Shown here piece after piece: positions 213-31,683 of a stretch of 64,000 nt of DNA. Both the position numbers and the translations under genes were made by a program. The DNA is from Dokdonella sp. (GTDB taxonomy: Bacteria; Pseudomonadota; Gammaproteobacteria; Xanthomonadales; Rhodanobacteraceae), in the NCBI GenBank assembly GCA_016712865.1, contig JADJQH010000008.1, forward strand, positions 248,001 to 312,000, given 5' to 3'. The notes under the pieces are model-generated. The model was not told the origin of the DNA, searched no databases, and saw only the letters and a list, made by a program, of their open reading frames with translations. Position 1 is the stretch's first letter; each line of letters opens with the position of its first letter.

Positions 213-2708
213 ATGCGTAGCGTGAACATGCTGCTGTTCGTCGTCCTTCTGCTGGGCGCCCCCTGGCGCAACGCAAATGCCATTGAATACTGTGTTGGAA
301 CGGTGGCCGAGTTGACCGTGGCCCTGAATGATGCCGCGGGTGAGTCTTCGGAGCTGTTCACGACCACGGTCAAGCTCAAGCAGGGCACCTACCACATTGG
401 CGGTACACGTCTGACCCAGCCCAACCAGGCCTTCTTCCATGCCTTGGAGTTGCTGGGCGGCTACAACAGCGATTGCTCGGCGCGCGTGATCAAGCCCGAC
501 AACACGGTGTTTGATGCCGACGCTGCCGACATCGTCAGGATCCAACCGATCAATGATCTCCTCATCGAGGGTATTCGCTTCCAGAACGTTGGCAACTCCA
601 AACAAGTGCAGGTTTTGGCGGCTGCCGCCGGCGTTACTGCGAGCCTGCGCAACAATGCCTTTGTTGGCGTGAGCTCCTGGAATGTACCCGGGCCCACGCC
701 GGACAGAGGTTCGGCCTCCGACATGGCCATCAATTTCCTGAATAACCGGGTACATGGATTTCCCGGCTTTGCTTCGGTGAGTGCGGTCTACATGGGCGCC
801 ATGAGCAGCATTCGATTCACCGGCAACACCATTGTCGACAACCAGGGAGAAAGTGGGGTTTACATCTGTTCCAGCAGCAGCAACGTCTGGCTGCTCGACA
901 ACATTGCCTGGAACAACAACGGACAGGATTTCAGGGTCTACGAAGATTGCGGAGACACCGACCTTGGCGAAGCCCGTTTTCGCGCCAATCTCTACCAGAG
1001 CGCCCAGTTGACTCCGATTTCAGACTCGGGAGACAACCTGGTAGGCAGCGACCCGCAGTTCATCAATCCCGGCGCGGGCAACTACCGCATCCAGACCACC
1101 TCGCCGGCGGTCAATGCCGGTGTCGTAAGCAGCTCGTCCACGTCCGTGGATCTGGATGGCAACCCGCGCGTGGTCGGCTCGACGGTGGACATGGGGGCCT
1201 ATGAGTCAAGCGTGGATGACACCATTCCCACAACGCTCACAGTGACCAGCACCAGCGACAGCGGGCCGGGTTCGCTGCGCCAGGCCATCCTTGATGCCAA
1301 CGCCAACGAGGATTTCTCTTTCATCCGGTTCAACATTCCGGGCAACTGCCCGCGCGTGATCCTGAACTCGTCGGCCAACCTGCCGACCATCACCAACGGC
1401 GTGTTGATCGATGGCTGGAGCCAGCCCGGCAGCCGCTCCAACACGCGCAGCAAGGGTGACAACGCCTACCGCTGCATCCTGCTGGTCGGTGGCAACGGAC
1501 GCACCACGGGACTGGTGTTTGGCGGCAGCGGCAGCGAGCAATTCTGGCTGCAAGGCATGGCCTTCTCCGGATTTTCCACCACGGCGTTCGATGGCGAAGC
1601 CCTGCGCATTGCCGGGGGCGGTGGCAATCTCATCCGCGGCAACCAGTTTGGCGGAACCTTGAGCACCCCATCCGGGACGCTGGCCTTGCAACCCAGCGAC
1701 AACAACATCGTGCTCACCCAGTTTTCGGAAAGCACGGTCGGTGGTGACTTGCCTGCGCATCGCAATGTCATTGCCGACGCCCGTGCGGCAGGCGTGCTGA
1801 TCAACTCGGGCACGTTCGGGTCTTCGACCAACAACGAGATCACCAACAACCTGTTCGGCAGCTACGGCCTTGAAATCACCGCAGCCGGCAACTTTACCGG
1901 CATCAAGATCCAGACCAGCGGCAACACGGTAAGCGACAACACCATCATCAACAGTGGTCTCGATGGCGTGCTGATGGATGTGGCCGCCGCGTCCGGCAAT
2001 CTGGTCCAGAACAATCGCATCGGCATTGCCGACACCATTTGCATTGGCGATTTCTGCTTCGGTGGCTCGGCGCCCAACGGCCGCTTCGGCATCTACCTGT
2101 CGTTTGGCCCGCACGACAACATCATTTACCGGAACACCATCCGGTACAACACCAGCGCCGGAATCAGCATCGGCTCATCCGCAGGCGCGACCAGCCTGCG
2201 AAACTGGCTGGTTGCCAATTCGCTGTACAACAACGGCGCCCAGGGCACCTTGTTCAATGTCTACAACGGTGCCGACAACGATGCCTTGGCATCCAACCAG
2301 GACATGGCCAATCGCGGACTCAACTACCCGGAGGTCACCCGCGCCTATGGCGGCACGCGCAAGGGCTGGGTTGAAGGAAGGTTGCGCACCCTCAACGGCA
2401 GTTATCCGCTGGATGTCTTCAGCTCAGCCGCGCCGGATCCCGGTTTCCCGCGCGGCGAGGCTGAAGTGTTTCATCGCAGCTACTACAGCGTCGTCATCAA
2501 CAATGCACCCAACAACCAGAACGGCGTTGCAAATTTCCGCGTGTCGTTCAGTGCCAGTCCGGCGCAGAGCCTGGTCGGGCGCGTGGTGACGTTGACAGCG
2601 GCGGACGACGTGGGCAACACCTCGGAGTTGTCCGCGCCCGTGGCCTATCTGTGCGACGTGATCTATTCGCACAACATGGATGACACCTTGGGCGACCGCT
2701 GCCCGTAG
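213..2708 (+). CDS. Exported parallel beta-helix protein with choice-of-anchor Q and CSLREA-like segments
   Basis: Secreted 831-residue protein of unknown role. ATG 213 is chosen over GTG 180 because GGAGG (201-205) lies 7 nt upstream and the product then starts with a clean signal peptide ending ANA. Residues about 25-330 are Asn/Gly-rich beta-helix-like rungs ending in a choice-of-anchor Q type tail (SPAVNAG ... DLDGNPRVVG ... DMGAYE). From about residue 341 a CSLREA-like motif (TVTSTSDSGPGSLRQAI) opens a second helix. The C-terminus (CDVIYSHNMDD then a short Cys-containing tail) aligns position by position with the D-x-I-F-x-D-G-F-E tag of other exported proteins here. The next gene is a paralogue 10 nt downstream, probably in the same operon. 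Known: such folds are common in surface and adhesive proteins. Substrate unknown. Confidence 0.85.
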   Translation: MRSVNMLLFVVLLLGAPWRNANAIEYCVGTVAELTVALNDAAGESSELFTTTVKLKQGTYHIGGTRLTQPNQAFFHALELLGGYNSDCSARVIKPDNTVFDADAADIVRIQPINDLLIEGIRFQNVGNSKQVQVLAAAAGVTASLRNNAFVGVSSWNVPGPTPDRGSASDMAINFLNNRVHGFPGFASVSAVYMGAMSSIRFTGNTIVDNQGESGVYICSSSSNVWLLDNIAWNNNGQDFRVYEDCGDTDLGEARFRANLYQSAQLTPISDSGDNLVGSDPQFINPGAGNYRIQTTSPAVNAGVVSSSSTSVDLDGNPRVVGSTVDMGAYESSVDDTIPTTLTVTSTSDSGPGSLRQAILDANANEDFSFIRFNIPGNCPRVILNSSANLPTITNGVLIDGWSQPGSRSNTRSKGDNAYRCILLVGGNGRTTGLVFGGSGSEQFWLQGMAFSGFSTTAFDGEALRIAGGGGNLIRGNQFGGTLSTPSGTLALQPSDNNIVLTQFSESTVGGDLPAHRNVIADARAAGVLINSGTFGSSTNNEITNNLFGSYGLEITAAGNFTGIKIQTSGNTVSDNTIINSGLDGVLMDVAAASGNLVQNNRIGIADTICIGDFCFGGSAPNGRFGIYLSFGPHDNIIYRNTIRYNTSAGISIGSSAGATSLRNWLVANSLYNNGAQGTLFNVYNGADNDALASNQDMANRGLNYPEVTRAYGGTRKGWVEGRLRTLNGSYPLDVFSSAAPDPGFPRGEAEVFHRSYYSVVINNAPNNQNGVANFRVSFSASPAQSLVGRVVTLTAADDVGNTSELSAPVAYLCDVIYSHNMDDTLGDRCP

Positions 2709-2718
2709 GAGACAACTC

Positions 2719-4224
2719 ATGCGCATTTTCCAATGGGCGTGCACAGTCGGCGTGCTGTTCTCGACGTCGGCAATGGCTGCCACCTTTACGGTCAGCAACA
2801 CCAGCGATGCCGGTATCGGTTCCTTGCGTCAGGCCATCCTCGATTCAAATACCGCTGCGGGCTCGAACGAAATCCACTTCGCGATTCCCGGAATCGGCCC
2901 ACACACGATTGCCTTGCTCAGCCAGTTGCCGGGAATCACCAGCACGCTGACCATCGATGGCTATACGCAAAGTGGAGCTGCGCCGAACACGAATTCGACC
3001 AGCTCGGGTGGGCTCAATGCGGTGCTGCAGATCGAGCTGGTCGGAACGGGCGGTGTCTACGGCTTTTATACGGACAAGGCCAATGGCGTGATCCTGACCG
3101 TGCAAGGTTTGGTCATGCACGGCTTCATCGCCAACCTGTTCGGCGCCCCGGTTGCCGGAACCTCGCAATTGCGTGCGTTTGGCAATTATTTCTGCACCAA
3201 TGCGGACGGTACTGCGGCGGCTACCGGCCCGACCACGGGCCTGGGCGTCGGCACCAATGAGACGCCCGCGTTCGTTGGCGGTGATCTTGCCGCGCAGCGC
3301 AACCTGATTTCCGGATGCGGTTCCTCGGCAATCGACATTCGCAGCACGACCCAGGTGCGCGGTAATCTGATCGGAACCGATGCAACGGGCAGCGTCGCCA
3401 TACCAAATGGCCCGTCGGCCATTTCGATCACCAGCGACAGCGTCAATGTCGGCATTGGCGGTGCCGATGCGACCGCGCGCAACGTGATTTCCGGCAACCG
3501 CGGTTTTGCCATCCGGCTCGGCAACTTGTCCGCCGCCGCGCAATATGTCGGCTTGCAAATCCAGGGCAACTACATCGGTACCGACTGGACCGGCCTGGTT
3601 GCCCTGCCCAATGGTTCTGCCGACACGGCCCAAACCGCGTTCGGTGGCGGCATCCAGTTGTACAGCACCCAGACCGGAAGCTCCGTTGCGGTCATCGGCG
3701 GCTTTGGCGAAGGCGAGGCGAACCTGATTGCCTGGAACCAGGGCGTGGGCATCATTGCTGCCTCGAACAGGGCGAGCGAGGGATTCGACTCGCGCGGAAA
3801 CTGGGTCCACCACAACCGGGCGGTAGGCCGGGCCAACCTCGATATCGGCGACCTTGGCCCGACCCCGAACGATGCCGATGATGCCGATACTGGCGCCAAC
3901 GGCCAGCAGAACTGGCCCGAAATTATCGCCGCGAGCCAGGTTGGCGATCAGCTCAGCGTCACCTATCGGGTTGATACCGCAAGCACCCACGCGGGCTATC
4001 CGCTGCGCATCGACTTTTACGCCAATGCAATGGGCGGCAGCGGCCTGTGGCTGGCCCAGGACAGCTACGGCGTGGCCGATGCGCAGCAGGCGCGCACGGT
4101 CACCTTGACCGTGCCGCCCGGTGCCAAAGCCCTTCCCTGCGTGGCCACTGCAACCGACACCGGCGGCCAGGGCAGCGAATTCTCGCCCGCGTTCGATGTG
4201 CTGTTCGAGGACGATTTTGATTGA
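2719..4224 (+). CDS. Exported beta-helix protein, paralogue of the preceding gene
   Basis: 501-residue protein. ATG 2719 is preceded by AGGAGA (2707-2712) and starts a signal peptide ending SAMAA. The mature protein opens with a CSLREA-like motif (TVSNTSDAGIGSLRQAI, residues about 22-40), nearly the same as the motif in the middle of the upstream protein. It continues with repeated GNxIGTD rungs typical of right-handed beta-helices (GNLIGTDATG, GNYIGTDWTG). It ends FDVLFEDDFD, a variant of the D-x-I-F-x-D-G-F-E tag, followed directly by the stop. The 10-nt gap to the upstream gene suggests co-transcription. Function unknown; extracellular or surface location inferred from the signal peptide. 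Confidence 0.85.
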   Translation: MRIFQWACTVGVLFSTSAMAATFTVSNTSDAGIGSLRQAILDSNTAAGSNEIHFAIPGIGPHTIALLSQLPGITSTLTIDGYTQSGAAPNTNSTSSGGLNAVLQIELVGTGGVYGFYTDKANGVILTVQGLVMHGFIANLFGAPVAGTSQLRAFGNYFCTNADGTAAATGPTTGLGVGTNETPAFVGGDLAAQRNLISGCGSSAIDIRSTTQVRGNLIGTDATGSVAIPNGPSAISITSDSVNVGIGGADATARNVISGNRGFAIRLGNLSAAAQYVGLQIQGNYIGTDWTGLVALPNGSADTAQTAFGGGIQLYSTQTGSSVAVIGGFGEGEANLIAWNQGVGIIAASNRASEGFDSRGNWVHHNRAVGRANLDIGDLGPTPNDADDADTGANGQQNWPEIIAASQVGDQLSVTYRVDTASTHAGYPLRIDFYANAMGGSGLWLAQDSYGVADAQQARTVTLTVPPGAKALPCVATATDTGGQGSEFSPAFDVLFEDDFD

Positions 4225-4344
4225 GGCTGCGCTGAAAAAGTGCAGAATCCGGATGCTTGGTGGCGACGACGTCGGGTTCAGGATCGCCCCGCGCTGGTCC
4301 TTTCGAGCTGATGAATGCAGCGCGTGAATTTCGCCAGGAGGATT

Positions 4345-4705
4345 TAGGGCAACGCTGAACAAGGGGCACAACCGTCATGGTGCCCAGAAGGTTCGCCAGT
4401 CGTGCTGCGCGGCGATGGGAAGGCTGGTTGCCTTTCCGAGACACGCGGTGCGACTGGAGAACCTTTTGGGCGCCACCCGATTCCATGAAAATCAAATGCT
4501 TGGGCAGAGCCTGTCCTGAGCCTGACGAAGGACCTGTCTGTGCGCAGCTCATTGGCGCGCTGCCTTGAAGCGACTGCATGGATGCAGGAGGTAGAGCAAC
4601 GCAAGGAGCAGTTGCCGAGACGGCCAGTCCATCTGCGACATCGCGCCGCGATCTGCACACAGACAGGTGTCGTGACGGCTGCGCCACTTGATCAGAGTTG
4701 CCCTA
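4345..4705. mobile_element. 361-bp MITE-like element with 18-bp imperfect terminal inverted repeats
   Basis: The gap 4225-4770 is mostly filled by this element. The left end tagggcaacgctgaacaa (4345-4362) and right end ttgatcagagttgcccta (4688-4705) are inverted copies differing at 2 positions. Inside, 4378-4401 (ggtgcccagaaggttcgcc) and 4449-4472 form a further imperfect hairpin, and 4507-4530 resembles a widespread cctgagcctgacgaagg repeat. No transposase reading frame is visible. Related ends occur at 17791-17906, 20598-20614, 37024-37041, 53702 onward and in the 218-bp array. Non-autonomous mobility is inference. Confidence 0.6.
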
Positions 4706-4770
4706 GCACGTGATCTGCAATTCGCCATGTCGTTCGGATTCAGCCTGTTGCCCGGGCCGGGAGGTGTCGC

Positions 4771-7479: not shown

Positions 7480-7585
7480 TCGTGACCGCAATGCCGATTG
7501 CCCCGGGCCTTGCGCATGGCTTGTGAAAGAGCCCCGGGCGGTTTCGAGCCGCTAGAATCCGGGTTTTCCACCAGAATCCGAGTCG

Positions 7586-13127: not shown

Positions 13128-13180
13128 GAGCGGGGCATTTGCTACAGTCTGGGCTGGCTTCAGGTCGGAACAAGCCGCGC

Positions 13181-14107
13181 ATGTTGAGTCGCCTGCAAAA
13201 CCCCGGCTGGTCGCGAGCCGGAACCGAGCGCTGGTCGTTGCTGGGCGCACGCCTAGTCTGCGCGCTTTTGCTGCTGGGTTTGCTGTGGTCGATGGCGCGC
13301 ATGTTCTGGCTGCTGGTACCGGCGGGTGAGGGAACGGACAGCATCCCGGCGCGCGCCGCAGTGAGTGCTTCCGGCAATTCACCGCCACTGTCGATTGCCA
13401 AGTGGCACCTGTTCGGCGCAGCCAGCGTGCAGGCGCGCGGCAGCCAGAGTGCGGCGGCAACCACCCTGGATTTGACCTTGCGCGGAACCCTGGCAGATGC
13501 GGATCCGAAACTCGGCATGGCCGTGATCGCCAACGCGCAGGGCGAAGAGCGCGTGTGGCAGGTGGGCGAGGAAGTCACCGCCGGTGCAACGCTTGATGAA
13601 GTTCTGGCTGATCGCGTGGTGCTGCTGCACGCTGGCGTGCGCGAAGAATTGCGCCTGCCACGCGAGGCCGACGCCGCAAAGCCGACCCCCATTCCCGCCG
13701 CGCAGCGCGGTGGTTTTGCACCCCGCAACACGGCGATGGAGGCCAAGCCGGGCGCCTTGTCGACCTTCGAGCCCCCGCGCATGGCGCAAGGTGCGCTCGA
13801 TTGGCAGAAGACCATGGAAGCCATAGGTGGCAGCCCTGCGGATGTCGCCCGCAATGTCCGCATCGATCCGGTGTTCAATGAAGGGCGCATTTCCGGCGTG
13901 CGCGTTTCCTCGGCCAATGGCGATGCCGCCTTGCTCGGCAAGCTCGGCTTGCGCCCCAGCGATATCGTCACCGCCGTCAATGGCGTGCCGGTGGATTCCA
14001 TCGAGCGCGGCCAGCAGATCCTGCAAAGCCTGAAGAATGCCCAGGACGTGCGAGTCACCGTGACCCGCGACGGCACGCCTGCTGAAATCACCGTGCGCTT
14101 GCAGTAA
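13181..14107 (+). CDS. gspC: Type II secretion system inner-membrane protein GspC
   Basis: 308 residues. A short cytoplasmic N-terminus is followed by one transmembrane helix (ARLVCALLLLGLLWSMARMF). Next is the GspC homology region starting WHLFGAASV and containing LTLRGTLA...A-IAN-GEE-VW-VGEEV. A PDZ domain ends the protein (GLRPSDIVTAVNGVPVDS). GspC links the inner-membrane platform to the secretin GspD. ATG 13181 is used; the open frame runs 14 codons upstream without support. TACAGT at 13143-13148 may be the -10. First gene of a gspC-gspD-gspE run. Confidence 0.9.
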   Translation: MLSRLQNPGWSRAGTERWSLLGARLVCALLLLGLLWSMARMFWLLVPAGEGTDSIPARAAVSASGNSPPLSIAKWHLFGAASVQARGSQSAAATTLDLTLRGTLADADPKLGMAVIANAQGEERVWQVGEEVTAGATLDEVLADRVVLLHAGVREELRLPREADAAKPTPIPAAQRGGFAPRNTAMEAKPGALSTFEPPRMAQGALDWQKTMEAIGGSPADVARNVRIDPVFNEGRISGVRVSSANGDAALLGKLGLRPSDIVTAVNGVPVDSIERGQQILQSLKNAQDVRVTVTRDGTPAEITVRLQ

Positions 14108-14257
14108 GGGATGTCTGGCGCAGTCCAGAGCAGCAATCGGCGCGCTTTGCTACGCTTGGCCGCCCCGTCCACACGGGGTTCCCTGGACCTGTACGTGTCG
14201 CCGCGTGGCTGGCGATGTGCATGTAGCAGCCGCAACCTGAGCCAAGAGTCCGAACCG

Positions 14258-16303
14258 ATGAAGTCTGCTTCCGCGTTGCATTTCCTCGTCCTGTGCGCCT
14301 GTCTGTTCGCATCGCCGGCATTTGCACAAGGCTCGACCACGCCATCGTCAGTTGCCGCCGATGGCCGCCACACCTTGAACCTGAAGGACGCCGATATCCA
14401 GGCGCTGATCGCCACGGTGTCGGAAATCACCGGCAAGAATTTCATCCTCGGGCCGAACGTGCAGGGCAAGGTCACGGTGATTTCGGCCAAGCCCATGAAA
14501 CCGGATGAAATCTACGATGTGTTCCTGTCGGTGCTGCGCGTGCACGGATACGCCGCCATTTCCCAAGGCAGCATGATCAAGATCGTGGCCGAGGCCATGG
14601 CCCAGCAGGATGGTTCGGCATCCTTGAACGGCGACCGCGTGCATTCGACCGACGAGCTGATCACCCAGATCGTGCCGGTCAAGCATGTTGCGGCCAACGA
14701 CCTCATCCAGATCCTGCGTCCGCTGATGCCGCAGGGCGGGCAACTGGTTGCGCACGCTTCGTCCAACTCGCTGGTGATCTCCGACCGCGCCGGCAACGTC
14801 GCGCGGCTGGTCAGCATCATCCAGCGCATCGACACCGTTTCCGATGCCGAGGTGGAAGTGATTCCGCTGGCGCATGCCAATGCGGCCGAACTGGCGCGCA
14901 CCCTGACTGCGCTGGCCGACGACAAGACGGCCCAGGTCAACGCGCAGGCGCCCCGCGTGTTTGCCGATACCCGCACCAATTCGGTATTGCTGGCCGGAGC
15001 CAAGAATGCGCGGCTCAAGCTGCGCGCCCTGATTGCGCACCTGGACACGCCGTTGCAGAACGGTGGCGATACCCAGGTGGTGTACCTGCGCAATGCCAGT
15101 GCCAAGGATCTGGTGCCGATCCTGCAAGGCGTGGCCGCGACCCTGACCGGCGATGCGCCGCCCTCGCCGCCGAAAGACGGGGCATCCGGCGCCTCCGGCG
15201 GCTCATTGATCGCCACGATCCAGGCTCATGAGGCCACCAACGCACTGATCATCAGCGCACCGCCGGCCGTGTTCCGCTCGCTGGCTGCCGTTGTTCGCCA
15301 GCTCGATGTTCGTCGCGCCCAGGTGCTGATCGAGGCCATCATTGCCGAAGTCGGCGATTCCACGGCGAGCGAGATCGGCGTGCAATGGTTCACCGCGCCG
15401 CAGCGCAGTGATGGCAGCCTCGGCCAGGGCATCATCGGTGGCACCAATTTCCCGGGGCCCAACGGCAATTCCGCCTTGACTTCGTTGGCAACCAATCCGC
15501 TCGGCTTGTCGGGTCTGGGTGGCCTTTCCCTGGGTTATATCGACGGCACCATCAACATTCCCGGCACCGACACGCCACTGTTGAACCTCGGTGCCCTGGC
15601 GCGCGCATTGCGCGGCGATGGCACCACCAACATCCTGTCCACGCCATCCATCCTCACCCTCGACAACCAGGAAGCCGAAATCAAGATCGCCAAGGAAGTG
15701 CCGTTCCTGACCGGCTCCTACACCAACACCGCGAGCAGCGGCCAGAACGGCCAGGTGACCAATCCGTTCCAGACCATCGAGCGCAAGGATGTCGGACTGG
15801 TATTGAAGGTGACGCCGCACATCAACGAAGGCGATGCGGTGCGCATGGAAATCCACCAGGAAGTTTCTTCGCTGGCGCCACCGGTGACCGGTGCCGTGGA
15901 CCTGGTCACCAACAAGCGCGAGCTGTCCACCAATGTGCTGGTGTCCGACAACTCGCTGCTGGTGCTGGGCGGGTTGAGCGACACCAATGTCAGTGACAAC
16001 AACAGCAAGGTGCCGGGCCTTGGCAGCATTCCGGTCATTGGCAACCTGTTCCGCTACCGCTCAAACAAGAACGAGAATCGCGAGCTGATGATCTTCATGC
16101 GGCCGAAGATCCTGCGCGACGCGGCCACCGAAGCGGCGGTTTCGAGCGAGAAATACAACTACATGCGCACCGAGCAGTTGCGCCTGCGTGAGGATTCGGC
16201 GCCGCTGACGCCACGCGGCGAGCGCCCGCTGCTTCCCGAAGTGCACGACTTCCTGAGCGACCCGGGCCCCGCCGCAAATGCACCGACGCGGGATCGGCAA
16301 TGA
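14258..16303 (+). CDS. gspD: Type II secretion system secretin GspD
   Basis: 681 residues with a signal peptide (ending SPAFAQ). An N0 domain (LNLKDADIQALIATVSEITG) and N1-N3 modules follow (VIPLAHANAAELARTL, VVYLRNASAKDLVPIL). The secretin core ends with VPGLGSIPVIGNLF and the typical RELMIFMRPKIL. It forms the outer-membrane pore through which folded exoproteins leave. ATG 14258 gives a proper signal peptide; the frame is open upstream to 14111. The stop overlaps the gspE start by ATGA. Gap of 150 bp from gspC. Confidence 0.95.
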   Translation: MKSASALHFLVLCACLFASPAFAQGSTTPSSVAADGRHTLNLKDADIQALIATVSEITGKNFILGPNVQGKVTVISAKPMKPDEIYDVFLSVLRVHGYAAISQGSMIKIVAEAMAQQDGSASLNGDRVHSTDELITQIVPVKHVAANDLIQILRPLMPQGGQLVAHASSNSLVISDRAGNVARLVSIIQRIDTVSDAEVEVIPLAHANAAELARTLTALADDKTAQVNAQAPRVFADTRTNSVLLAGAKNARLKLRALIAHLDTPLQNGGDTQVVYLRNASAKDLVPILQGVAATLTGDAPPSPPKDGASGASGGSLIATIQAHEATNALIISAPPAVFRSLAAVVRQLDVRRAQVLIEAIIAEVGDSTASEIGVQWFTAPQRSDGSLGQGIIGGTNFPGPNGNSALTSLATNPLGLSGLGGLSLGYIDGTINIPGTDTPLLNLGALARALRGDGTTNILSTPSILTLDNQEAEIKIAKEVPFLTGSYTNTASSGQNGQVTNPFQTIERKDVGLVLKVTPHINEGDAVRMEIHQEVSSLAPPVTGAVDLVTNKRELSTNVLVSDNSLLVLGGLSDTNVSDNNSKVPGLGSIPVIGNLFRYRSNKNENRELMIFMRPKILRDAATEAAVSSEKYNYMRTEQLRLREDSAPLTPRGERPLLPEVHDFLSDPGPAANAPTRDRQ

Positions 16304-17793
16304 ATCAGGCGGTCGTTACCGAGCCGCGACCCGCACGACCCGGATTCGGCTTTGCGCGGCGGCATGGTGTTGCGCTGACCACCTGGCATGCGGATTTCGC
16401 GGAGATCGCCTGCCGCCAGGGTGTGCGCCCGGAAGTGCTGGCGGAACTCAGGCGACACCTCGGCGTTGAACTCAAGCTGACGGCCCATGAGCCACCGGCC
16501 TTCGAGCGTCTGTTGCGCGAGCTTTACGAACAGGGCGATGACGCGCGCTCCATGGTTTCGGACCTGGATGAACATCTCGATCTCAAGGCGCTGGCGGACG
16601 ACCTGCCGGAACCCGAAGACCTGCTCGAATCCGATGACGATGCGCCGATCATCCGCCTGATCAATGCCCTGCTTACCGAAGCGGTGAAGGAAGGCGCCTC
16701 CGATATCCACGTCGAGCCCTTCGAGAGTCGACTGGTCGTGCGCTTTCGCATAGACGGCGTGCTGCGTGAGGTACTGGCACCACAGAAGGCCATCGCCAAT
16801 GCCGTGGTCAGTCGCATCAAGGTCATGGCCAAGCTCGATATCGCAGAGAAGCGCCTGCCGCAGGATGGGCGCATCGGTTTGCGCATTGCCGGGCGTCCGG
16901 TCGACGTGCGCGTGTCGACCATTCCGGCGGGCCATGGCGAGCGCGTGGTGCTGCGTTTGCTGGACAAGCAGGCCGGTCGACTCGATCTCGTGCAACTGGG
17001 CATGGATTCCGCTTCGCGCAAGCGCCTCGAAGCGATGATCCAGCGTCCGCACGGCATCCTGCTGGTGACCGGACCGACCGGCTCTGGCAAGACCACCACC
17101 CTGTACGCGGCCCTGCTCAAGCTCAACGATTCCTCGCGCAACATCATGACCGTCGAGGATCCCATCGAGTACTACATCGACGGCATCGGCCAGACCCAGG
17201 TCAATACGCGCGTCGACATGACTTTCGCACGCGGCCTGCGCGCCATCCTGCGCCAGGATCCGGATGTGGTGATGGTCGGCGAGATCCGCGACCTCGACAC
17301 CGCCGAGACCGCGGTGCAGGCCTCGCTGACCGGACATCTGGTGCTTTCCACCCTGCACACCAATTCGGCAGTCGGTGCGGTGGCCCGCCTGCGTGACATG
17401 GGTGTGGAACCGTTCCTGCTCTCATCCAGTCTGGTGGGCGTGCTCGCCCAGCGTCTCGTGCGTGCACTCGATCCGGATCTGCGCGAAGCCTATCCGGCAA
17501 GCGCAGCGGAGCTGGCGGCCTTCAACCAGCCGACCGACGCCCAGGTCACCCTGTATCGTCCGCGATCGGATCTCGGCAGTCGTCACGCCGGCTACAAGGG
17601 ACGCACCGGAATCTATGAACTGGTGCCGGTCGATGAGCAGATGCGCCGCCTCATCCATGAAGGCGCTGCCGAAGCCGAGCTTGAGTGTCACGCGCGCCGT
17701 TCGGCGCCGAGCATCCTGGAAGACGGCTGGCAGAAGTGCGTCGCCGGAATCACCACGACCGAAGAAGTGCTGCGGGTAACGCGCGAAGGCTAG
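16300..17793 (+). CDS. gspE: Type II secretion ATPase GspE, tetracysteine motif missing
   Basis: 497-residue cytoplasmic ATPase that drives pseudopilus assembly. Visible: N1E-like domain, GASDIHVEPFESRLVVRFRID, Walker A GPTGSGKTT (258-266), Asp box (VEDPIEY), Walker B (ILRQDPDVVMVGEIRD) and the His box. The C-terminal zinc module usual in GspE (two CxxC pairs) is absent: LVRALDPDLREAY and YRPRSDLGSRHAGYKGRTGIYE occupy the places where cysteines are expected. ATG overlaps the gspD stop. No gspF or pseudopilin gene follows. The TAG stop is the first three bases of an inverted-repeat element. Confidence 0.92.
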   Translation: MNQAVVTEPRPARPGFGFARRHGVALTTWHADFAEIACRQGVRPEVLAELRRHLGVELKLTAHEPPAFERLLRELYEQGDDARSMVSDLDEHLDLKALADDLPEPEDLLESDDDAPIIRLINALLTEAVKEGASDIHVEPFESRLVVRFRIDGVLREVLAPQKAIANAVVSRIKVMAKLDIAEKRLPQDGRIGLRIAGRPVDVRVSTIPAGHGERVVLRLLDKQAGRLDLVQLGMDSASRKRLEAMIQRPHGILLVTGPTGSGKTTTLYAALLKLNDSSRNIMTVEDPIEYYIDGIGQTQVNTRVDMTFARGLRAILRQDPDVVMVGEIRDLDTAETAVQASLTGHLVLSTLHTNSAVGAVARLRDMGVEPFLLSSSLVGVLAQRLVRALDPDLREAYPASAAELAAFNQPTDAQVTLYRPRSDLGSRHAGYKGRTGIYELVPVDEQMRRLIHEGAAEAELECHARRSAPSILEDGWQKCVAGITTTEEVLRVTREG

Positions 17794-22580: not shown

Positions 22581-23897
22581 TCATTCGAAACCGTTGGCGA
22601 AGATGAGGTCATTGCCTTCGCTGAGGCAGCTCGGCGTATTGGCGGCAATCCGGGCAAGCAAACGGGTGATCTGCGTGGGATGGAATTGCAGCACGTTCTG
22701 GTTGCATCCATTCTGGTTGCAGTAGCTCATCACGCTGCCACGCGGTGCGCCAGGCCCTGAAACCGGGCAACTGGTCGGGCCCGTGTAGCAGCCGCTGCCG
22801 ACATTCGAACACAAGTCGATGGTGTTGCTGCCGGTTGGATAGTTACCCGTGCTGACATTGGTGCAATGGGTATGCGCTGCACCGAAGTTGTGCCCCAACT
22901 CGTGTGCCACCAGGGTTGCGCTGAGCAACACGCCGATTCCAGGATTGGTGAATACCTGGTTGATGCTGTAACTGCCGCCGTTGCCGGAGGTGAGGCAATA
23001 GACATCCAGCCATGCAATGCCTGCCGCGGAGTTTCCGCTGGTGGAATTGCCGGACAGCAGCATGGCGAAATCGCGGTTGATCGCGGCGTAGTTCGCCTGC
23101 CAGTAGTTGCCGAACTCGACCAGGGTGGCTTGATCGGCTGGGAAGGTTGTATTCGCGTATGGATCCGTGGTCGTGCGCAGAAACGTGTCGCCAACCTGCA
23201 ACTGCACGTTGAGATCGTTTTCGTAACCGATGTTCATCTGGGTGAACAGGTCGGCAATCCAGCTGGTGGCCTGCGCGGTGTTGTTGGAAAAACGCTCACT
23301 CATGAAGCTGACATCGGTATCCACCGCGATGCGCGCGTAACGCAGCGATCCCTGTGGTCCCGGGGTGTCGGGGAGCAGGTGATCGAAGGCAGCGGCGGGC
23401 GTGCTGGCCAGCGCAATGGCATCGTCGAGACCCGCGGTTTCCGGTTTGACTCCGCGTGGCAAAGCCGCTTCCGGACTGAGGGCTTCGAGCTGCCAGGCAT
23501 CCCCCTTGCGGGCAGCTTGCACGACAAACCCGCCGGCAGGACCCGAACCTGTTGCCTGTGGCGGCGTGGAAAGATCCGGATCAAACGACAACGCAATCCG
23601 TGAAAGGCCATCCCGGCTGTATCCGAGCAGGTGCACGCGTGGGCTGCGTGCAATCTCGTGCTGGCCGCTGCCGTCGATGACAAAGACGCGCGCGCCGGGC
23701 GCATAGATCTCGATGCGGCGGAATTCGTAGGCACTGACCAGGCCGGGGCCGGCGGGAAACGCTGCGACGGAAAGCGACTGGCCGGGCGAGAGATTTCCCA
23801 GTTGGCGCAGTGTGGCGCGTTCAAGCGAGACAGAACCCGGCGTCGCCAGGGCATGGCTGGCGCACATCAACACAAACAGCGTGATCAGCCCGCGCAT
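22581..23897 (-). CDS. Secreted zinc metalloprotease (metzincin), tagged C-terminus
   Basis: 438 residues with a signal peptide (ending SHALA). The zinc site HELGHNFGAAH (H332, E333, H336, H342) is the full metzincin HExxHxxGxxH motif. A Met-turn-like GSVMSYCN follows about 50 residues later. An N-terminal pro-region of about 180 residues precedes the catalytic domain, which has many cysteines. The last residues are NDLIFANGFE, the shared tag. Probably an extracellular protease exported by Sec then T2SS (inference). It lies 204 nt downstream of a related protease gene in the same direction. Confidence 0.9.
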   Translation of the reverse strand: MRGLITLFVLMCASHALATPGSVSLERATLRQLGNLSPGQSLSVAAFPAGPGLVSAYEFRRIEIYAPGARVFVIDGSGQHEIARSPRVHLLGYSRDGLSRIALSFDPDLSTPPQATGSGPAGGFVVQAARKGDAWQLEALSPEAALPRGVKPETAGLDDAIALASTPAAAFDHLLPDTPGPQGSLRYARIAVDTDVSFMSERFSNNTAQATSWIADLFTQMNIGYENDLNVQLQVGDTFLRTTTDPYANTTFPADQATLVEFGNYWQANYAAINRDFAMLLSGNSTSGNSAAGIAWLDVYCLTSGNGGSYSINQVFTNPGIGVLLSATLVAHELGHNFGAAHTHCTNVSTGNYPTGSNTIDLCSNVGSGCYTGPTSCPVSGPGAPRGSVMSYCNQNGCNQNVLQFHPTQITRLLARIAANTPSCLSEGNDLIFANGFE

Positions 23898-24048
23898 GGG
23901 CGACGTCCTCGTTCAAGGTTTCGCGCACATGATCCGGGGATTGGCCGAGGGCATCAGCGGCCCAGCGCACGAAACGGCGAATCAAGTGTGCGCCCGCGCG
24001 CGGCGCCGGGCAATGGCGAGGAGCTGGGCCGTTTGCCCCACGCTACGG

Positions 24049-24084: not shown

Positions 24085-24101
24085 ATTCGGACGGGCGGAC
24101 C

Positions 24102-26090
24102 TCAGGGCGCGGGAGAGTCCGGTATTTCGAAACCGTCGGCGAAGATGAGATCGGGCCCAACGATGGTGAAATTGCCCGGATTGAGCGCAAAGAAGATGTT
24201 GTTCGCGCAGCGCACGCGCACGCGCGCGGTCGTCGACTGCATGTTCGGCACGTTGACCACGGCGCTGCCGTTGTTGGGAATGCCCTGGGCGAGCACGGCG
24301 GTGCTGAGGCCAAATCCGCCACCGGTGTAGACGTCGATATCAACAGCAGGGCAGGAGACGGGCGCAAGGTCGGTGCCCGCAACATTCCAGCTCACGGTTT
24401 CCGTTGCATTGATCGAGGCATCCCAGGTGGCGGCAGCAACCGGGGCCGTTACCGCGAAGGGTCCAGCGGCAGAACTCACTTGAAATGCGATGTCCTGGCT
24501 GGAGGAGGTGCCGCCGCCTGCCACGTTGTCGAAAACGGTCAGGCGGAAATTGAGGGCGCGCGTGGTGGTCGGCAGGATTTCACCGATGGTGCTGCCGCCG
24601 TTCAGCAGGTTGTTGAGGTTGGGCACCGTGCGGATGCCGGTGGTCGTGGGCGAGAAGGAGCGGATGATGGGACCGTTGCCCGGATCCACATTGATGTTGG
24701 CCGTCTGTGCGCCCAGGTTGTACTGCTCCCAACCGTAGCGCAGCTGCGCGCCCACGGCGGTACTCGAAGCAACCCCACTCAGGGCGAATGGCGTCGATGC
24801 CGGAATCGTGAAGCCGCCCGTGAACGCAGCAATTTGCGGGGCGTCATTGTTGGTTTCCGTCGCTGCGCAGGCGCCGCCGGAACCATCGGTGAACTGGTCG
24901 ATCTCATCCAGGCTCTTGGCGTGGAAATAGGGGTCCGAGTGGGGTTGCAGGTTGGGGGAACACACGCCGGCATAGCCCATGATGGTAGAGCCGCTGCCCG
25001 GTTCGTAGGCGGCGGATGGCTCACGATTGCCGCTGCAACTGTTGTTGAAGGTGTGGTTGCCGCCGAACTGGTGGCCCACTTCATGGGCGACAAAGTCGAT
25101 GTAGAAGGTGTCGCTGACCAGTTCGGCAGGGTTGCTCAATCCGGTGGTGCCGCGGCCCTTGCCGCTGCCACAGACCACGCCAAGGCCAGCCACGCCGCCA
25201 CTGCCGGTGGTGAACACATGGCCGATGTCGTAGTTGGCGCTGCCGATCACTGCATTGAGATTGGCGGTGTTCTGGTTGAGGGCTCCACCACCGTTGGAAT
25301 AGGGGTCGGTCAGCGCATCCGGATAGATGACCAGGTCATTGTTGGGGACCAGGCTCATGTGGATCGAGAGATCGTTCTCGTAGACCTCGTTGACCCGGTT
25401 CACCGCCGCGACCACTGCCGCGAGACCGAGCGCAACGGTGGGAGGATTGGCCCCGGAAATGGCTGCAACGTAGTTGTGGTTGGCGGCAAACGCGGCGCGG
25501 TAGTTGCGCTTGATGGTGCCGGTGGTGGTTGCTGGTGCGGTGGGGCGAGGAATGACCGGATCCAGGCTGGTGTGCGTGCCGCAGACAAAACCCGGCGCCT
25601 GCGCGGCAACATCCGCTCGACTGAAGCTCACATACTCGCGGCCTTCGCCAAAACTGACCGGGCGCACCAGCCAGACGTTGGCGCCCTCGAACACCATGGC
25701 ATTGAGGCCAAGTGGCGAGATGTCGATGCGGGCGTGGCGTCCGTTGGCGTCGCTGGCGACGAAGCTGCGGATCTGCGGATAGCGGGCAGCCAATTCCGCT
25801 GGCATCACGCCGGAATCCGACAGCACGAACTCGGCAAATCCGCCGTTCGGCATGGGCAGGGACAGACTCTTGCCGATGCCGCCTTGCAGGTCATTGCGCA
25901 GGGCTGTGAAATCCAGATCCAGTGGGCGATAGTGGTCGGGAACCTGGTGGACACCGGCCAAGGCCCGGCCCGGCGTGTCTTGCCAGTAGCCGGATTGGGC
26001 GGCGATGGCCAGGGCGGGCAGCAGCCCGCAAAGCAGTACTGCGAAAACTGCGCCAAGGCGGGCGCAAAGGCGCGGCTGGAAATCGTTCAT
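24102..26090 (-). CDS. Secreted reprolysin-like zinc metalloprotease, tagged C-terminus
   Basis: 662 residues. ATG 26090 is preferred over ATG 26096 because GAGGA then sits at workable spacing. Signal peptide ends LAIAAQ. The zinc motif HEVGHQFGGNH (H336, E337, H340, H346) is complete and a Met-turn candidate (STIMGYAG) follows. After the catalytic domain comes an Ig/fibronectin-like beta region (about 420-640). The C-terminus PDLIFADGFE is followed by eight residues, so the tag is near-terminal here. Domain order pro-region, catalytic, beta-sandwich matches secreted bacterial reprolysin-like proteases. Probably degrades extracellular protein. Confidence 0.9.
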   Translation of the reverse strand: MNDFQPRLCARLGAVFAVLLCGLLPALAIAAQSGYWQDTPGRALAGVHQVPDHYRPLDLDFTALRNDLQGGIGKSLSLPMPNGGFAEFVLSDSGVMPAELAARYPQIRSFVASDANGRHARIDISPLGLNAMVFEGANVWLVRPVSFGEGREYVSFSRADVAAQAPGFVCGTHTSLDPVIPRPTAPATTTGTIKRNYRAAFAANHNYVAAISGANPPTVALGLAAVVAAVNRVNEVYENDLSIHMSLVPNNDLVIYPDALTDPYSNGGGALNQNTANLNAVIGSANYDIGHVFTTGSGGVAGLGVVCGSGKGRGTTGLSNPAELVSDTFYIDFVAHEVGHQFGGNHTFNNSCSGNREPSAAYEPGSGSTIMGYAGVCSPNLQPHSDPYFHAKSLDEIDQFTDGSGGACAATETNNDAPQIAAFTGGFTIPASTPFALSGVASSTAVGAQLRYGWEQYNLGAQTANINVDPGNGPIIRSFSPTTTGIRTVPNLNNLLNGGSTIGEILPTTTRALNFRLTVFDNVAGGGTSSSQDIAFQVSSAAGPFAVTAPVAAATWDASINATETVSWNVAGTDLAPVSCPAVDIDVYTGGGFGLSTAVLAQGIPNNGSAVVNVPNMQSTTARVRVRCANNIFFALNPGNFTIVGPDLIFADGFEIPDSPAP

Positions 26091-26249
26091 GCTCATGTCC
26101 TCTGGAGTTCCCCGTGACGATCGCGCTTCGCGTGGACTCGAAACGCAAGCCGCCGATGGTCGCATGCTCGAGGGGTCGGCGCATGGGTCTTGAGGGGGAT
26201 TGGCTGGCCATTCGGAGCCGGGGTCGGGGCAGGGCTTTTCGCAGACTGC

Positions 26250-26281
26250 AAAAGGAAAAGGGCCTTGACGAATCAAGGCCC
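26250..26281 (-). terminator. Rho-independent terminator
   Basis: On the minus strand GGGCCTTGA, loop TTCG, TCAAGGCCC (26281-26260) is a perfect 9-bp stem with a stable tetraloop, followed by TTTTCCTTTT. It lies 24 nt after the stop of the 26305 gene and separates that gene from the protease downstream. Confidence 0.9.
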
Positions 26282-26304
26282 CGGATTGCAAAGAGCAATT
26301 TCCT

Positions 26305-27165: not shown

Positions 27166-27257
27166 GGAACACCTCCAGTTTGGTTGCGCGGAGGGTTCAA
27201 CGCAGCCGATATCGAATCGGGGTTAAGTCCTGCTTGTCCAGAGCGCATCGAAGGATG

Positions 27258-27345
27258 GGCACTTGGTGTCCTGATTCCGTTCATGGTTCGACGGGCTCAC
27301 CACGAACGGGCTTGGGAGCTCACCACGAACGGAATCCACTAGATC
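27258..27345. repeat. Dispersed ggttcgacgggctcaccacgaacgg repeat
   Basis: Upstream of trpS, gttcatggttcgacgggctc and accacgaacgg units occur twice with variation. The same family is greatly expanded at 60205-60570. It is a non-coding palindromic repeat. Confidence 0.6.
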
Positions 27346-27419
27346 ACTGTTGCCTTGGGCGAAGCAGGGGCGAGGCGTTGGATTCGCTAAACTAGCGACT
27401 GTCCCGCACTTGTCCTGGC

Positions 27420-28799: not shown

Positions 28800-28956
28800 C
28801 CGCTCCGGATCACGCTCAAGCGCGGTTTGTCCGAAACCGTGATCTGCTGCGCGTTGCCTGCGTGCACCGCGCACATTCCCTGACTGCAGGGGGAGTATCG
28901 TGTTTCGACCTTGCTTCGCAGTGCAGCCTTCAACGGTGAATACCCGCAACTCCAGC

Positions 28957-29850
28957 ATGAATCGGCTTTTCGTAGCGCTGATGCTGCTTGTCTTGTGCCA
29001 TGGCACGGCAAAGGCGACCACGACCGGCCAGCTCCCCGCGTGGGTATGCGAGGTGCCCGATGCCATCTTCATCGACGGATTCCAGCCGGCAGCGGCACGA
29101 GTGAGCCTGCCCTCGAACGGATCGGGCGGTGCCGTCGGCAACGTCACGCGAGTCGTGAATGTGCCCGGATACGGATCGCGCACGGTTTATCTGCGAGTGC
29201 CGCCTTCCTACTCGCCTTCGCGACCGATGCCACTGGTATTGGCTCTGCATGGACAAGCCGGAAGCCCGGCGGCAGCAGACAGCGAGGCGCTGCGGGCACG
29301 CAATACGTGGGCGGGAATCGCCGATGCGGAAGGATTCATCGTCGTCGCTCCGGTGGGTACCGAGAGCACCGGAGGCTGGATCGTTCCTCCGCCCAATCCG
29401 AGTGACTACAACCTGTTTGCCTCCGCCATGGCCGATGCCGAAGCGGCCTACAACATCGATCGCTCGCGTCGCATCGGTTGGGGCTATTCCGCCGGTGGAC
29501 ATGTGTTGCACGACATCATGTACAACGATTTCGGTGCGCCGATTTCGATCGACGATTTCGCCGCCTATGCGGTCAGCGCAGGCGTGCTGCAGGGGTTGGC
29601 TTGCAACAGTCCATCCGCGTGCAGCGCATTGCTCGGTACGGCCTCACGCCATGTTCCGCTGGATATTCACATCGGCAACAGCGATCCGCTGGTCTCGTAT
29701 GCCCAGCAGGATCGTGATGCATTCGTCGCCAACGGCTGGGTGCTCGGAGATGATCTGTGGTTCAGTCCGTTTGTCGGCGGGCACAACTACACGGCCAGTC
29801 ACCTCGACACCATGTGGCAACGCTTGTGCCCGTTCCAGGCGTTGCCTTGA
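28957..29850 (+). CDS. Secreted alpha/beta hydrolase (PHB depolymerase/feruloyl esterase-like), tag near N-terminus
   Basis: 297 residues from ATG 28957, which gives a signal peptide ending TAKA. The oxyanion region LALHGQAG, nucleophile motif GYSAG (S178), an Asp region (IGNSDPLV) and a late His (GGHNY) fit a serine esterase of the LpqC/PHB depolymerase type. The shared tag appears as DAIFIDGFQ at residues 35-43, just after the signal peptide instead of at the C-terminus. Its last 25 bp are duplicated exactly at 32314-32338. Substrate unknown. Confidence 0.85.
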   Translation: MNRLFVALMLLVLCHGTAKATTTGQLPAWVCEVPDAIFIDGFQPAAARVSLPSNGSGGAVGNVTRVVNVPGYGSRTVYLRVPPSYSPSRPMPLVLALHGQAGSPAAADSEALRARNTWAGIADAEGFIVVAPVGTESTGGWIVPPPNPSDYNLFASAMADAEAAYNIDRSRRIGWGYSAGGHVLHDIMYNDFGAPISIDDFAAYAVSAGVLQGLACNSPSACSALLGTASRHVPLDIHIGNSDPLVSYAQQDRDAFVANGWVLGDDLWFSPFVGGHNYTASHLDTMWQRLCPFQALP

Positions 29851-29851
29851 T
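29827..29851. repeat. 25-bp direct repeat, left copy
   Basis: Identical to 32314-32338 (core cccgttccaggcgttgcc). It spans the last codons and stop of the esterase gene. The two copies bracket a 2.5-kb segment with its own genes. Confidence 0.85.
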
Positions 29852-29890
29852 GTGGCCGCAGCAGCTTGTCATCGCATCCCCGCGCGTGTC

Positions 29891-30045
29891 GTAGAGCGGA
29901 GCTTGCTCCGCTTACTTTTTCCTGCAATGTCCCAAGCCGAGCAAGCTCGGCTCTACAAGAGCATATCGGTTCCCGTAGTCCCCAGCCGAGCAAGCTCGGC
30001 TCTACAAGAGCATGTCGGTTCCCGTAGAGCGGAGCTTGCTCCGCT
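29891..30045. repeat. Four REP units of the gagc-aagctc family
   Basis: In the gap 29851-30336. Palindromic units gtagagcggagcttgctcc... lie at 29891-29912 and 30024-30045, and agccgagcaagctcggctc... at 29935-29956 and 29984-30005, with near-identical spacers. The same family recurs at 62735-63022. Non-coding. Confidence 0.85.
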
Positions 30046-30081
30046 CATCGTTCCTTCCCGGTTCCCGCGTCACGCCAACAT

Positions 30082-30168
30082 TTACGCCGCCAGCGGCTGG
30101 GCATGTTCAAGCCCGTCGAAATAGTCGCGGGTCAGGCGCAACTGGGTCAGTGCGCATTCGGTGCAGTA
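30082..30168 (-). pseudogene. Remnant of a dus gene 3' end
   Basis: On the minus strand 28 codons read CTECALTQLRLTRDYFDGLE then HAQPLAA and a stop. They align with the last residues of the complete dusB in this window (DCAQTQMRLTRDYFDQLEQG then RPLAA). About 70% identity shows this is not a recent copy of that gene but another allele or paralogue. Nothing of dus lies upstream of it. It sits at the left edge of the 2.5-kb cassette, mirroring the dusB 3' end at the right edge. Confidence 0.8.
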
Positions 30169-30336
30169 CGGGCGTGTTCATTGAAATGCTGGCTACAGGA
30201 CATTTCACTTCTATCGCGTCGGCTTGTGTCAGATGGAACATTCGTCGCACAGAATCAAGGATTTGCGTTGTCATTCTTGTATCCATGAATTCTCGGGTGT
30301 AGCTTGCCGGTTCGGATTCAGATAGATGGAACGCCC

Positions 30337-31683
30337 ATGAAACGACGTATCCTGCAGACAACCCTTCTTGCAATTCTTTGCGCTGCCGCTCCGCTGGCGC
30401 TCGTTCAAGCCGGCGTTGTGGTTGAGTCGTTCGGCCTAACGACTTTCGACCCGCAAGAGAATCTTTTCACCTCCATTGGCCGCCCTACGAGTCCCGGCCT
30501 GCTGGCTGGCGTTGGTGCCGCTGAGGAATGGCCGGTCAGCATCAATCTGGCGCGGCTGCAAACCCTTCCGGAAACCGTGGTGCTCAATCTGCCAGGTCAG
30601 GAGTCCGACACACTCATCAGACTTCGCGCCGAACCGCGGGCCGGCAACGGTTATCTGTGGACCGGCGGCGGCGAAGGTTGCAGCGCGCTGCTAAGCGCGA
30701 AACCGAACCAGTTCCGCGCGACGATTTCGTGCCTCAGCGGAAACTATGGAGTCGAGACCACATCCAGCGGTCCCCGCCTGACCCGTTACGTCTATGAACC
30801 GGCTCCGCTCGGCGCGGAAAACGATGTTGTCCTTCCTGCGAGCACGCCGACCAGCCCAAACATCCCGGCGAACACGGAAACCCATTCCCTGGATGGCCCG
30901 GCATCGCTCGATACCGAAATCGACGTCCTGGTTCTCTACACCGCCAACGTGCGCCAAGCGCTGCAAGCGGTTGGCATCGATGCGACAACATACATGCAGG
31001 ACACTCTCGCCGCTACGCAAATGGCCATGGATCGCAGCACCAGTCCGGGCGATGCGGTGATCGCGGAGTTGAATCTGGTGCATGCACAAGAAGTGGCGCA
31101 TGCCGAGTCCGGGCAATTTCTTGATGACCTGAACTATCTGCGGCTAGATAGTATTGCGGTCGGATTACGAAACACATATGCGGCGGACTTAGTGATGCTG
31201 ATTCGGGAAAGTTCGCCGCAACCGAATCAATGTGGACTTGCGTATGGACCGGGTATTTTGACTACTCCACCGCCAGGCCCAGGATTTGCGCCCTTTGCCG
31301 TTGCAGTGACGAAGCGCCAATGCTCGTTCTCGGCCTATCCATTCCAGCATGAGTTTGGCCACCTGTTTGGTGGTAACCACAATCCCGAGGACAACAGTAA
31401 TCCTACGCCATTACATCCCTGGGCCTTTGCGCATTGGGATAATGCACCGAATCCGGAAGACAGTGCACGAACCTTGCTTTCCTATCAAATTCAAACCTGC
31501 CATGGCAGTTGCCCGCAGGTGCTGAATTACTCGAATGCGGCGGTTACCTTGACCAAGCCTTGGAACTTCCGTACGGGTGTCATGGGGCAGCGCGAAAATG
31601 CCTTGATCATTGAGGAATTCGCCTCGATTACCGCACAGTACCGGTCCAGTCTGGATCGAATCTTTGCGGATGGATTCGAGTAG
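30337..31683 (+). CDS. Secreted zinc metalloprotease (metzincin), tagged C-terminus
   Basis: 448 residues with a signal peptide (ending LVQA). The zinc motif HEFGHLFGGNH (H338, E339, H342, H348) is complete. A 190-residue pro-region precedes a peptidase domain starting around EIDVLVLYTANVRQAL, typical of reprolysin-like enzymes. It ends LDRIFADGFE, the clearest copy of the tag. Codon use looks more AT-rich than neighbours (several ata, tta, aat codons around 31130-31210), suggesting acquisition. A small surface-protein gene follows after 9 bp. Confidence 0.9.
   Translation: MKRRILQTTLLAILCAAAPLALVQAGVVVESFGLTTFDPQENLFTSIGRPTSPGLLAGVGAAEEWPVSINLARLQTLPETVVLNLPGQESDTLIRLRAEPRAGNGYLWTGGGEGCSALLSAKPNQFRATISCLSGNYGVETTSSGPRLTRYVYEPAPLGAENDVVLPASTPTSPNIPANTETHSLDGPASLDTEIDVLVLYTANVRQALQAVGIDATTYMQDTLAATQMAMDRSTSPGDAVIAELNLVHAQEVAHAESGQFLDDLNYLRLDSIAVGLRNTYAADLVMLIRESSPQPNQCGLAYGPGILTTPPPGPGFAPFAVAVTKRQCSFSAYPFQHEFGHLFGGNHNPEDNSNPTPLHPWAFAHWDNAPNPEDSARTLLSYQIQTCHGSCPQVLNYSNAAVTLTKPWNFRTGVMGQRENALIIEEFASITAQYRSSLDRIFADGFE

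Follow-up and report, generated by a model that had tools for sequence, protein, structure and literature searches.

Canonical ligands of PDZ domains are extreme C-termini, and the C-terminal sorting domains of the type IX secretion system (T9SS) of Bacteroidota are whole folded domains. Substrates of the type II secretion system (T2SS) are described as having no common sequence (PMC10128026). In Vibrio cholerae the PDZ domain of EpsC is reported to be required for secretion of VesB and to capture a VesB-derived fusion (PMC12369372). Here we analyze a 64,000-nucleotide (nt) stretch of Dokdonella sp. contig JADJQH010000008.1 (the window; coordinates count from its first letter), in which exported proteins carry a nine-residue tag with the consensus D-x-I-F-x-[DN]-G-F-E and in which gspC, gspD, and gspE of a second T2SS are also found. 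We conclude, with a probability of about 0.7, that the tag is a linear recruitment signal for this second T2SS.

The pattern IFx[DN]GFE had 26 matches in the 3.75-Mb Dokdonella genome, and the reversed pattern had none. This bears out the motif that an earlier note had drawn from the letters of the window, and makes it far commoner than the window could show. All but one of the 26 sites lie 0 to 7 residues from a stop codon, although one of these 25 (L040) is in a frame of 39 residues that lies at the end of a contig. In the sole exception (L031, minus strand, 4122-5378) the tag, IFQDGFE, is internal: 90 residues come after it, the last of them forming a hydrophobic helix plus basic residues; by eye this tail resembles an IPTL- or exosortase-type tail, which would put two sorting signals in one protein. 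In 40 stretches from 11 other genomes, which were chosen by hand and not at random, 57 of 59 sites were no more than 15 residues from a stop; the two others were the first copy in a tandem and a tag at an N-terminus (L171). Several Marinicella-type genomes have tandem tags (L177, L178, L179, L187, L193, and L196), in which the motif repeats about every 10 residues; one such C-terminus is DLIFSNGFESDVIFKDGFE.

The 26 frames of the Dokdonella genome and 139 from other genomes gave 165 distinct tagged frames. Between 0 and 11 residues follow the tag in 163 of these, many of which were retrieved with a pattern in which a stop had to follow the tag immediately; the other two are an N-terminal case and the L031 minus-strand frame. 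With 0 to 7 residues at 25 of the 26 Dokdonella sites, there are too few residues after the tag for a tripartite CTERM tail (PEP-, GlyGly-, MYXO-, or IPTL-CTERM), and we reject that identification, as had the earlier note, which saw neither a membrane helix nor a basic tail. Every third codon position was variable across 84 sites (GGC 29, GGT 29, GGG 15, GGA 11; ATT 36, ATC 35, ATA 13; GAA 44, GAG 40); therefore, selection acts at the protein level.

In the window itself, each of the six peptides that had been claimed was found in the gene to which it had been assigned, with the correction that seven residues, not eight, follow the tag of the 24102 gene. A 27-base degenerate DNA pattern, allowing at most one mismatch, had four matches in the window (three exact) versus none in 100 shuffles. 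When scored with a matrix trained on tags from outside the window, the three C-terminal tags of the 22581, 24102, and 30337 genes reached 29.4 to 32.7 bits and the esterase tag reached 22.6 bits; the best score among 20 × 873 shuffled frames was 14.8 bits. FDVLFEDDFD scored 6.9 bits, a value reached, at any place in a frame, roughly once per shuffled window. CDVIYSHNMD scored −7.4 bits with the same matrix, and neither peptide is significant taken alone. We accept CDVIYSHNMD as a degenerate tag because its homologs carry tag-like tails. Twelve loci of P0001, the product of the 213 gene, were fetched and tails were readable in seven, the window's own included; the other six, near the ends of the proteins, are CDTIFAHGFD, CDQIFGHGFD, CDQIFAHNLD, DDRIFKDGFD, SDVIFANGFD, and KDLIFRSTFE. 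Thus, four of the window cases are strong alone, one (FDVLFEDDFD) is weak, and one (CDVIYSHNMD) is a degenerate copy recognized via homologs. In this beta-helix family two cysteines frame the tag, CDxIFxHGFD...C (window 2652-2705; P0001 homologs L310, L318, and L319), perhaps as a disulfide-closed version of it.

The hosts of the tag had been called six unrelated proteins. Within the window they represent only three unrelated folds: the products of the 22581, 24102, and 30337 genes are all M12/reprolysin-like, two are related beta-helix-type proteins (P0001 residues 349 to 616 have a homologous stretch that the 2719 gene overlaps), and one is an esterase. However, there are many more genome-wide. 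The 139 tagged frames from other genomes split into 66 single-linkage families, so common ancestry of whole hosts is rejected as the source of the motif, as had been argued from the window. (An alignment of 77 hosts has invariant columns only in the tag, but the search pattern fixes those residues, so the alignment gives no evidence.)

We scanned 77 tagged proteins against Pfam and NCBIfam; 12 of the 64 family representatives, namely, the N-terminal case L171 and others that are mostly short fragments, were omitted, as was the Dokdonella frame at a contig end (L040). The 77 proteins matched 59 Pfam and 48 NCBIfam families. Among the best 25 of the 59 Pfam families were M12, M14, M28, M64, and S8 peptidases, GH5 and GH44, endonuclease I, and arylsulfotransferase, as well as beta-helix, FG-GAP, Calx-beta, and propeller families. 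The best 25 of the 48 NCBIfam families included the choice-of-anchor Q domain, present in 8 of the 77 proteins, and rhombosortase-dependent M36, myxosortase-dependent M36, T9SS-dependent M6-like, and MXAN_5453 (MYXO-CTERM) models, and no T9SS tail model was among them. Because some hosts match models named for other sorting tails, the tag stands where other lineages put other tails. One of the 77 proteins matched the model for the aminopeptidase LapA, which is described as T2SS dependent in Legionella (PMC5904407). The window also encodes an F510_1955-type glycosylhydrolase without the tag (60651-62660, plus strand), and two tagged proteins elsewhere match the same family; since this family has both tagged and untagged members, the tag is optional within a family.

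No plainly cytoplasmic family was found among the best 25 of the 59 Pfam families, and the best 25 of the 48 NCBIfam families were alike, which answers in part the question, raised in the earlier note, of whether cytoplasmic proteins carry the motif. All six window hosts had been credited with signal peptides, and our heuristic makes the same six calls, but it is self-made and lax and also calls some genes of cytoplasmic families. At its lower threshold the heuristic called 35 of 42 tagged frames versus 57 of 185 untagged neighbors, an enrichment of signal peptides among tagged frames, and at its higher threshold 23 of 42 versus 35 of 185.

The N-terminal placement of the tag in the window esterase is conserved. 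Of 14 tag-positive genomes searched, 13 encode the esterase family, with 14 members including the window's own; none of 8 tag-negative genomes does. All 14 members have a tag-like motif near the mature N-terminus, with scores of 5.8 to 30.5 bits, of which five are weak (5.8 to 10.2 bits). The L171 protein, in which a signal peptide is followed by QPIFADGFEQ, is an N-terminal case unrelated to this family. The tolerance of position that had been suggested from the esterase alone is upheld by this family and by L171.

The T2SS genes of the window and the tag sites are listed in Table 1. The window GspC scored 97.4 bits against PF11356, over the cutoff of 27, but fell below two other cutoffs (TIGR01713, 98.3 versus 101.6, just under; NF041515, 105.1 versus 150). 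With GspD and GspE over curated cutoffs and GspC over that of PF11356 only, we class 13139-17793 as a T2SS locus. By sequence, the C-terminal PDZ domain of GspC is homologous to those of OutC, PulC, and EpsC. Further genes of the second set are elsewhere in the genome, a GspF at C8:334409 (467 bits) and a GspG at C8:509943 (188 bits), both separate from the other T2SS set at C8:564-574k. The second T2SS is thus scattered here, with CDE in the window, F about 70 kb off, and G about 250 kb off; in Marinicella (L282) gspC, gspD, gspE, and gspF are adjacent and, as judged by eye, beside ftsE- and ftsX-like genes.

Table 1. Tag sites and genes of the second T2SS in the window
Feature	Coordinates	Strand	Description
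Degenerate tag DVIYSHNMD	2655..2681	+	CDVIYSHNMD, 8 residues from end of beta-helix protein 213-2708
Degenerate C-terminal tag DVLFEDDFD	4195..4221	+	FDVLFEDDFD-stop, exported protein 2719-4224; 6.9 bits, weak alone
C-terminal tag DLIFANGFE	22584..22610	-	NDLIFANGFE-stop, M12-like metallopeptidase gene 22581-23897
C-terminal tag DLIFADGFE	24126..24152	-	PDLIFADGFE, then 7 residues and stop; M12-like metallopeptidase 24102-26090, likely start 26090
N-terminal tag DAIFIDGFQ	29059..29085	+	Shortly past signal peptide, esterase gene 28957-29850
C-terminal tag DRIFADGFE	31654..31680	+	LDRIFADGFE-stop, metzincin gene 30337-31683
gspC, second T2SS	13139..14107	+	T2SSC (HR) domain and C-terminal PDZ domain
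gspD, T2SS secretin	14111..16303	+	TIGR02517, 544.5 bits (cutoff, 351.35); clade distinct from order's other GspD type
gspE, T2SS ATPase	16300..17793	+	TIGR02533, 683.6 bits (cutoff, 630.25)

The canonical tag was absent from 166 of 249 genomes of the order, present 1 to 4 times in 22, and present 6 to 73 times in 61. In a sample of 299 genomes from the phylum, 8 of which are in the order, the other 291 had exactly one match in 24 cases and two or more in none. A scan of the collection with a stricter pattern found at least 114 stretches with the tag. Among the 80 stretches listed, nearly all were named Lysobacterales, Gammaproteobacteria, or Pseudomonadota, and the carriers included Marinicella, Dokdonella, Tahibacter, Pseudofulvimonas, Pseudomarimonas, and a Wenzhouxiangella assembly; one each was labeled Chromatiales, Alcanivoracaceae, and Bacillota, the Bacillota case being in a 13-residue frame.

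The second T2SS has a similar distribution. In 80 genomes picked by tag count from the 249, 42 of 43 tag-rich genomes (all but G047) had a window-type GspC, versus 7 of 37 tag-zero genomes, plus two with weak partial matches. Matches to the GspD family, present in 79 of the 80 genomes and over the cutoff in 77, do not discriminate by themselves; what discriminates is the division into two secretin types, which form separate clades in a quick tree. Eight rows of that tree were read in the wrong frame, and of the two types only the second was later set right. A third strong copy of the GspF family was present in 10 of 10 tag-positive versus 0 of 3 tag-negative genomes, one of the three copies being presumably PilC, and a second type of GspG was present in 10 of 10 versus 0 of 5.

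For all 249 genomes we used the pattern IFx[NHD][GR]FE, which was written after variants of the tag (described below) were known, so that the resulting table is not independent of the variant finding (the counts of 42 of 43 and 7 of 37 given above predate this pattern); its cutoffs (tag count of ≥3; GspC E value of ≤1e-6) were set after the tables were viewed. Both tag and GspC were present in 79 genomes, the tag only in 5, GspC only in 8, and neither in 157 (Fisher, 7e-49, with kinship ignored). By genus, the corresponding numbers were 29, 2, 3, and 46, and when the genomes were stratified by family, the Cochran-Mantel-Haenszel chi-square was 85.7.

We also placed both traits on a tree. The tree was built on the GspD of the other T2SS in 59 genomes picked from the 80, and its root is arbitrary. 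On it there are four changes of state for GspC and six for the tag; G006 and G073 have GspC without the pattern. In 200 pairings of four independent pairs, the tag was concordant with GspC in all four nearly always and otherwise in three; the opposite never occurred. The nesting suggests losses, again with an arbitrary root. A concordant case outside the tree is G018, in the family that holds Marinicella, which has no GspD match, no canonical tag, and one match to the wider pattern. The earlier note had proposed a search for a gene whose presence tracks the motif; by the 249-genome table and the four concordant changes on the tree, the second T2SS with its PDZ-bearing GspC tracks it. Co-occurrence with this system likewise supports what that note had offered as one option, a sorting or secretion tag, "perhaps T2SS."

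A prediction was drawn from the GspC search in the 80 genomes. Seven of these are GspC positive but have no canonical tag, and these should carry variant tags; a search with one mismatch found such variants in five of the seven (G009, G036, G059, G006, and G016). There were 42 matches in G036 and 21 in G009, mostly IFxDRFE; 19 in G059, mostly IFxHGFE; and 8 in G006 and 5 in G016, with other C-terminal forms. G073 had one match, not within 2 residues of a stop, and G180 had none. When sites were read in context, 11 of 12 (of the 19) in G059 and 10 of 11 (of the 13) in G006 plus G016 were 0 to 2 residues from the stop. Three sites were read in each of G036 and G009, and four of these six lie 1 to 6 residues from the stop; the other two lie 94 and 489 residues before it. 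The more distant is an internal DLIFADRFE (L249, in G036), and the nearer is a GGIFCNEFE in a frame that also has DLIFSDRFE 6 residues before the stop (L250, in G009). In genomes lacking GspC, 18 of 19 near-matches were read, and no near-match in a frame of at least 100 residues had a stop within 10 residues; two of the 18 lie in frames of 15 and 19 residues. The variants of G006 and G016 account for two of the eight GspC-only genomes. Genus g31, to which two of the seven genomes belong, is probably Wenzhouxiangella, the clade of the DRFE variant.

The tag thus has two general properties of sorting signals: within one genome the same short motif has a constant position on many exported proteins that are unrelated to one another, and across genomes its presence tracks a machine. 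In the mechanism that we propose, tagged proteins with a signal peptide would be exported to the periplasm and fold there with a free tag at one terminus of the mature protein; this is the C-terminus in most cases but can be the new N-terminus, and some proteins have two copies. A periplasmic part of the second T2SS would bind the free tag, and the tagged protein would then pass through GspD. We infer both that secretion depends on the tag and where the tagged proteins finally reside. Because C-termini are the canonical PDZ ligands and secretion of VesB requires the EpsC PDZ domain, the PDZ domain of GspC is the first candidate for the putative reader of the tag, an assignment that we make tentatively and that has the odds somewhat against it. 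Also short of even odds is the broader idea that a transferable nine-residue peptide, readable at either end of a folded protein, is the general entry ticket of a dedicated T2SS, with the PDZ domain of GspC as its reader; peptide and reader would have diverged together from clade to clade (DGFE, DRFE, and HGFE).

Several observations weigh against recruitment by the second T2SS or against its PDZ domain as the reader. With four independent changes on the tree, too few to be significant on their own, the sign test gives a P value of 0.125. Co-occurrence is a correlation, and any gene lost together with the system would fit equally well. Six GspC-bearing genomes (G073, G080, G180, G197, G207, and G220) are tagless by the patterns used, and in four of these (G073, G180, G197, and G207; loci L293, L290, L291, and L292) GspC still ends in a PDZ-like domain. 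Conversely, two tag-rich genomes have no GspC match, G109 (39 tags; 94% complete) and G047 (9 tags; 90% complete), and three further genomes have four tags each and no GspC match. In the classical mode a PDZ domain binds a free C-terminus, but up to 11 residues may follow the tag and N-terminal tags exist; a terminal Glu is also unusual for classical PDZ ligands. Finally, the T2SS substrates that have been studied are described as using composite, fold-dependent signals (PMC7949064).

The alternative that survives best, although we consider it unlikely, is that the tag is a surface-retention or processing signal: the proteins would exit by the T2SS or another route, and an anchor or a sortase at the outer membrane would then bind or cleave the tag, so that the T2SS correlates with it as a cotraveler. 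Some hosts do match families that have anchoring tails elsewhere (MYXO-CTERM, rhombosortase-dependent, and choice-of-anchor Q), and retention would fit a report on Wenzhouxiangella AB-CW3, probably of the DRFE-variant clade, in which casein-degrading activity is described as cell bound with none in the supernatant (PMC7691419). However, the tag occurs at both ends of proteins and lacks the membrane helix and the basic end of tripartite tails, and tag and second T2SS change together on the tree. Nor did a dedicated sortase or anchor stand out when the 23 clusters of genes that neighbor tagged genes at four or more loci were read by eye, several clusters not being placed. Those that could be placed were kinase-like, extracytoplasmic function (ECF)-sigma-like, and housekeeping.

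Among these neighbors, Ser/Thr kinase-like genes (cluster 1; 23 loci) and ECF-type sigma-like genes (cluster 5; 11 loci) recur, for example, at L060 and L105; as placed by eye, they are a possible regulatory pair. Directly after the tagged metzincin in the window is a gene for a small protein with a C-terminal hydrophobic stretch and a weak DUF11 match (31693-32283). A small protein with a C-terminal hydrophobic stretch likewise directly follows a tagged metzincin at L031 (3162-3765), and such genes occur at four loci (cluster 18).

A second alternative, that the tag is a structural element with no receptor (for instance, a strand by which secreted folds cap or staple their last domain), we consider very improbable. 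Many hosts are indeed beta rich (beta-helix, FG-GAP, and propeller), but the tag occurs at either end of many unrelated folds, sometimes as a tandem pair, and is nearly absent where the second T2SS is lacking. A translated DNA-level element, such as a mobile or regulatory repeat, would suit the position at gene ends but has a negligible probability and is rejected, since the codons vary at every third position in the 84 sites and the tag recurs near the start of mature proteins.

In searches of the open-access literature we found no prior description of the tag, and within the same searches we know of no earlier linear T2SS signal. If the tag does recruit proteins to the second T2SS, the cargo of that system could be listed from sequence; there are 12 to 76 candidate cargo proteins in 62 of the 84 genomes with at least three tags. 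Recognition could be tested with one peptide and one small domain, and the tag would be portable for secretion. The clade variants DGFE, DRFE, and HGFE would be a natural experiment in the coevolution of a signal and its reader.

Of the known systems, the sorting domains of the T9SS resemble the tag in being a common C-terminal signal on many unrelated proteins tied to one outer-membrane secretion machine, but they are folded domains and not a nine-residue peptide. GlyGly-CTERM/rhombosortase, PEP-CTERM/exosortase, and MYXO-CTERM/myxosortase are similar in that a short conserved C-terminal signal occurs on many exported proteins per genome, in that many proteins pair with one machine across genomes, and in that some host families are shared. 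Unlike the tag, CTERM tails have three parts, a motif, a membrane helix, and a basic end, as described for PEP-CTERM (PMC1569441), and the GlyGly and MYXO forms are described as being cut by an intramembrane protease. The tag consists of nine soluble residues, sits at the N- or the C-terminus, sometimes in two copies, and is paired with a T2SS; CTERM tails share with it the logic of discovery (PMC1569441) but not the anatomy. Another known system is T2SS recognition via the GspC PDZ domain (the Ig fold of VesB with EpsC and the Fn3 domain of PelI with OutC), in which, as here, GspC has a C-terminal PDZ domain, reported to be needed for some substrates (PMC12369372). One signal of PelI is described as an exposed 9-residue loop (PMC7949064), in likeness to our nine-residue tag, but the VesB and PelI signals are within folded domains of single substrates. 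We regard the tag as a terminal sorting signal, which is a known kind of signal; a linear role in a T2SS would be new if confirmed.

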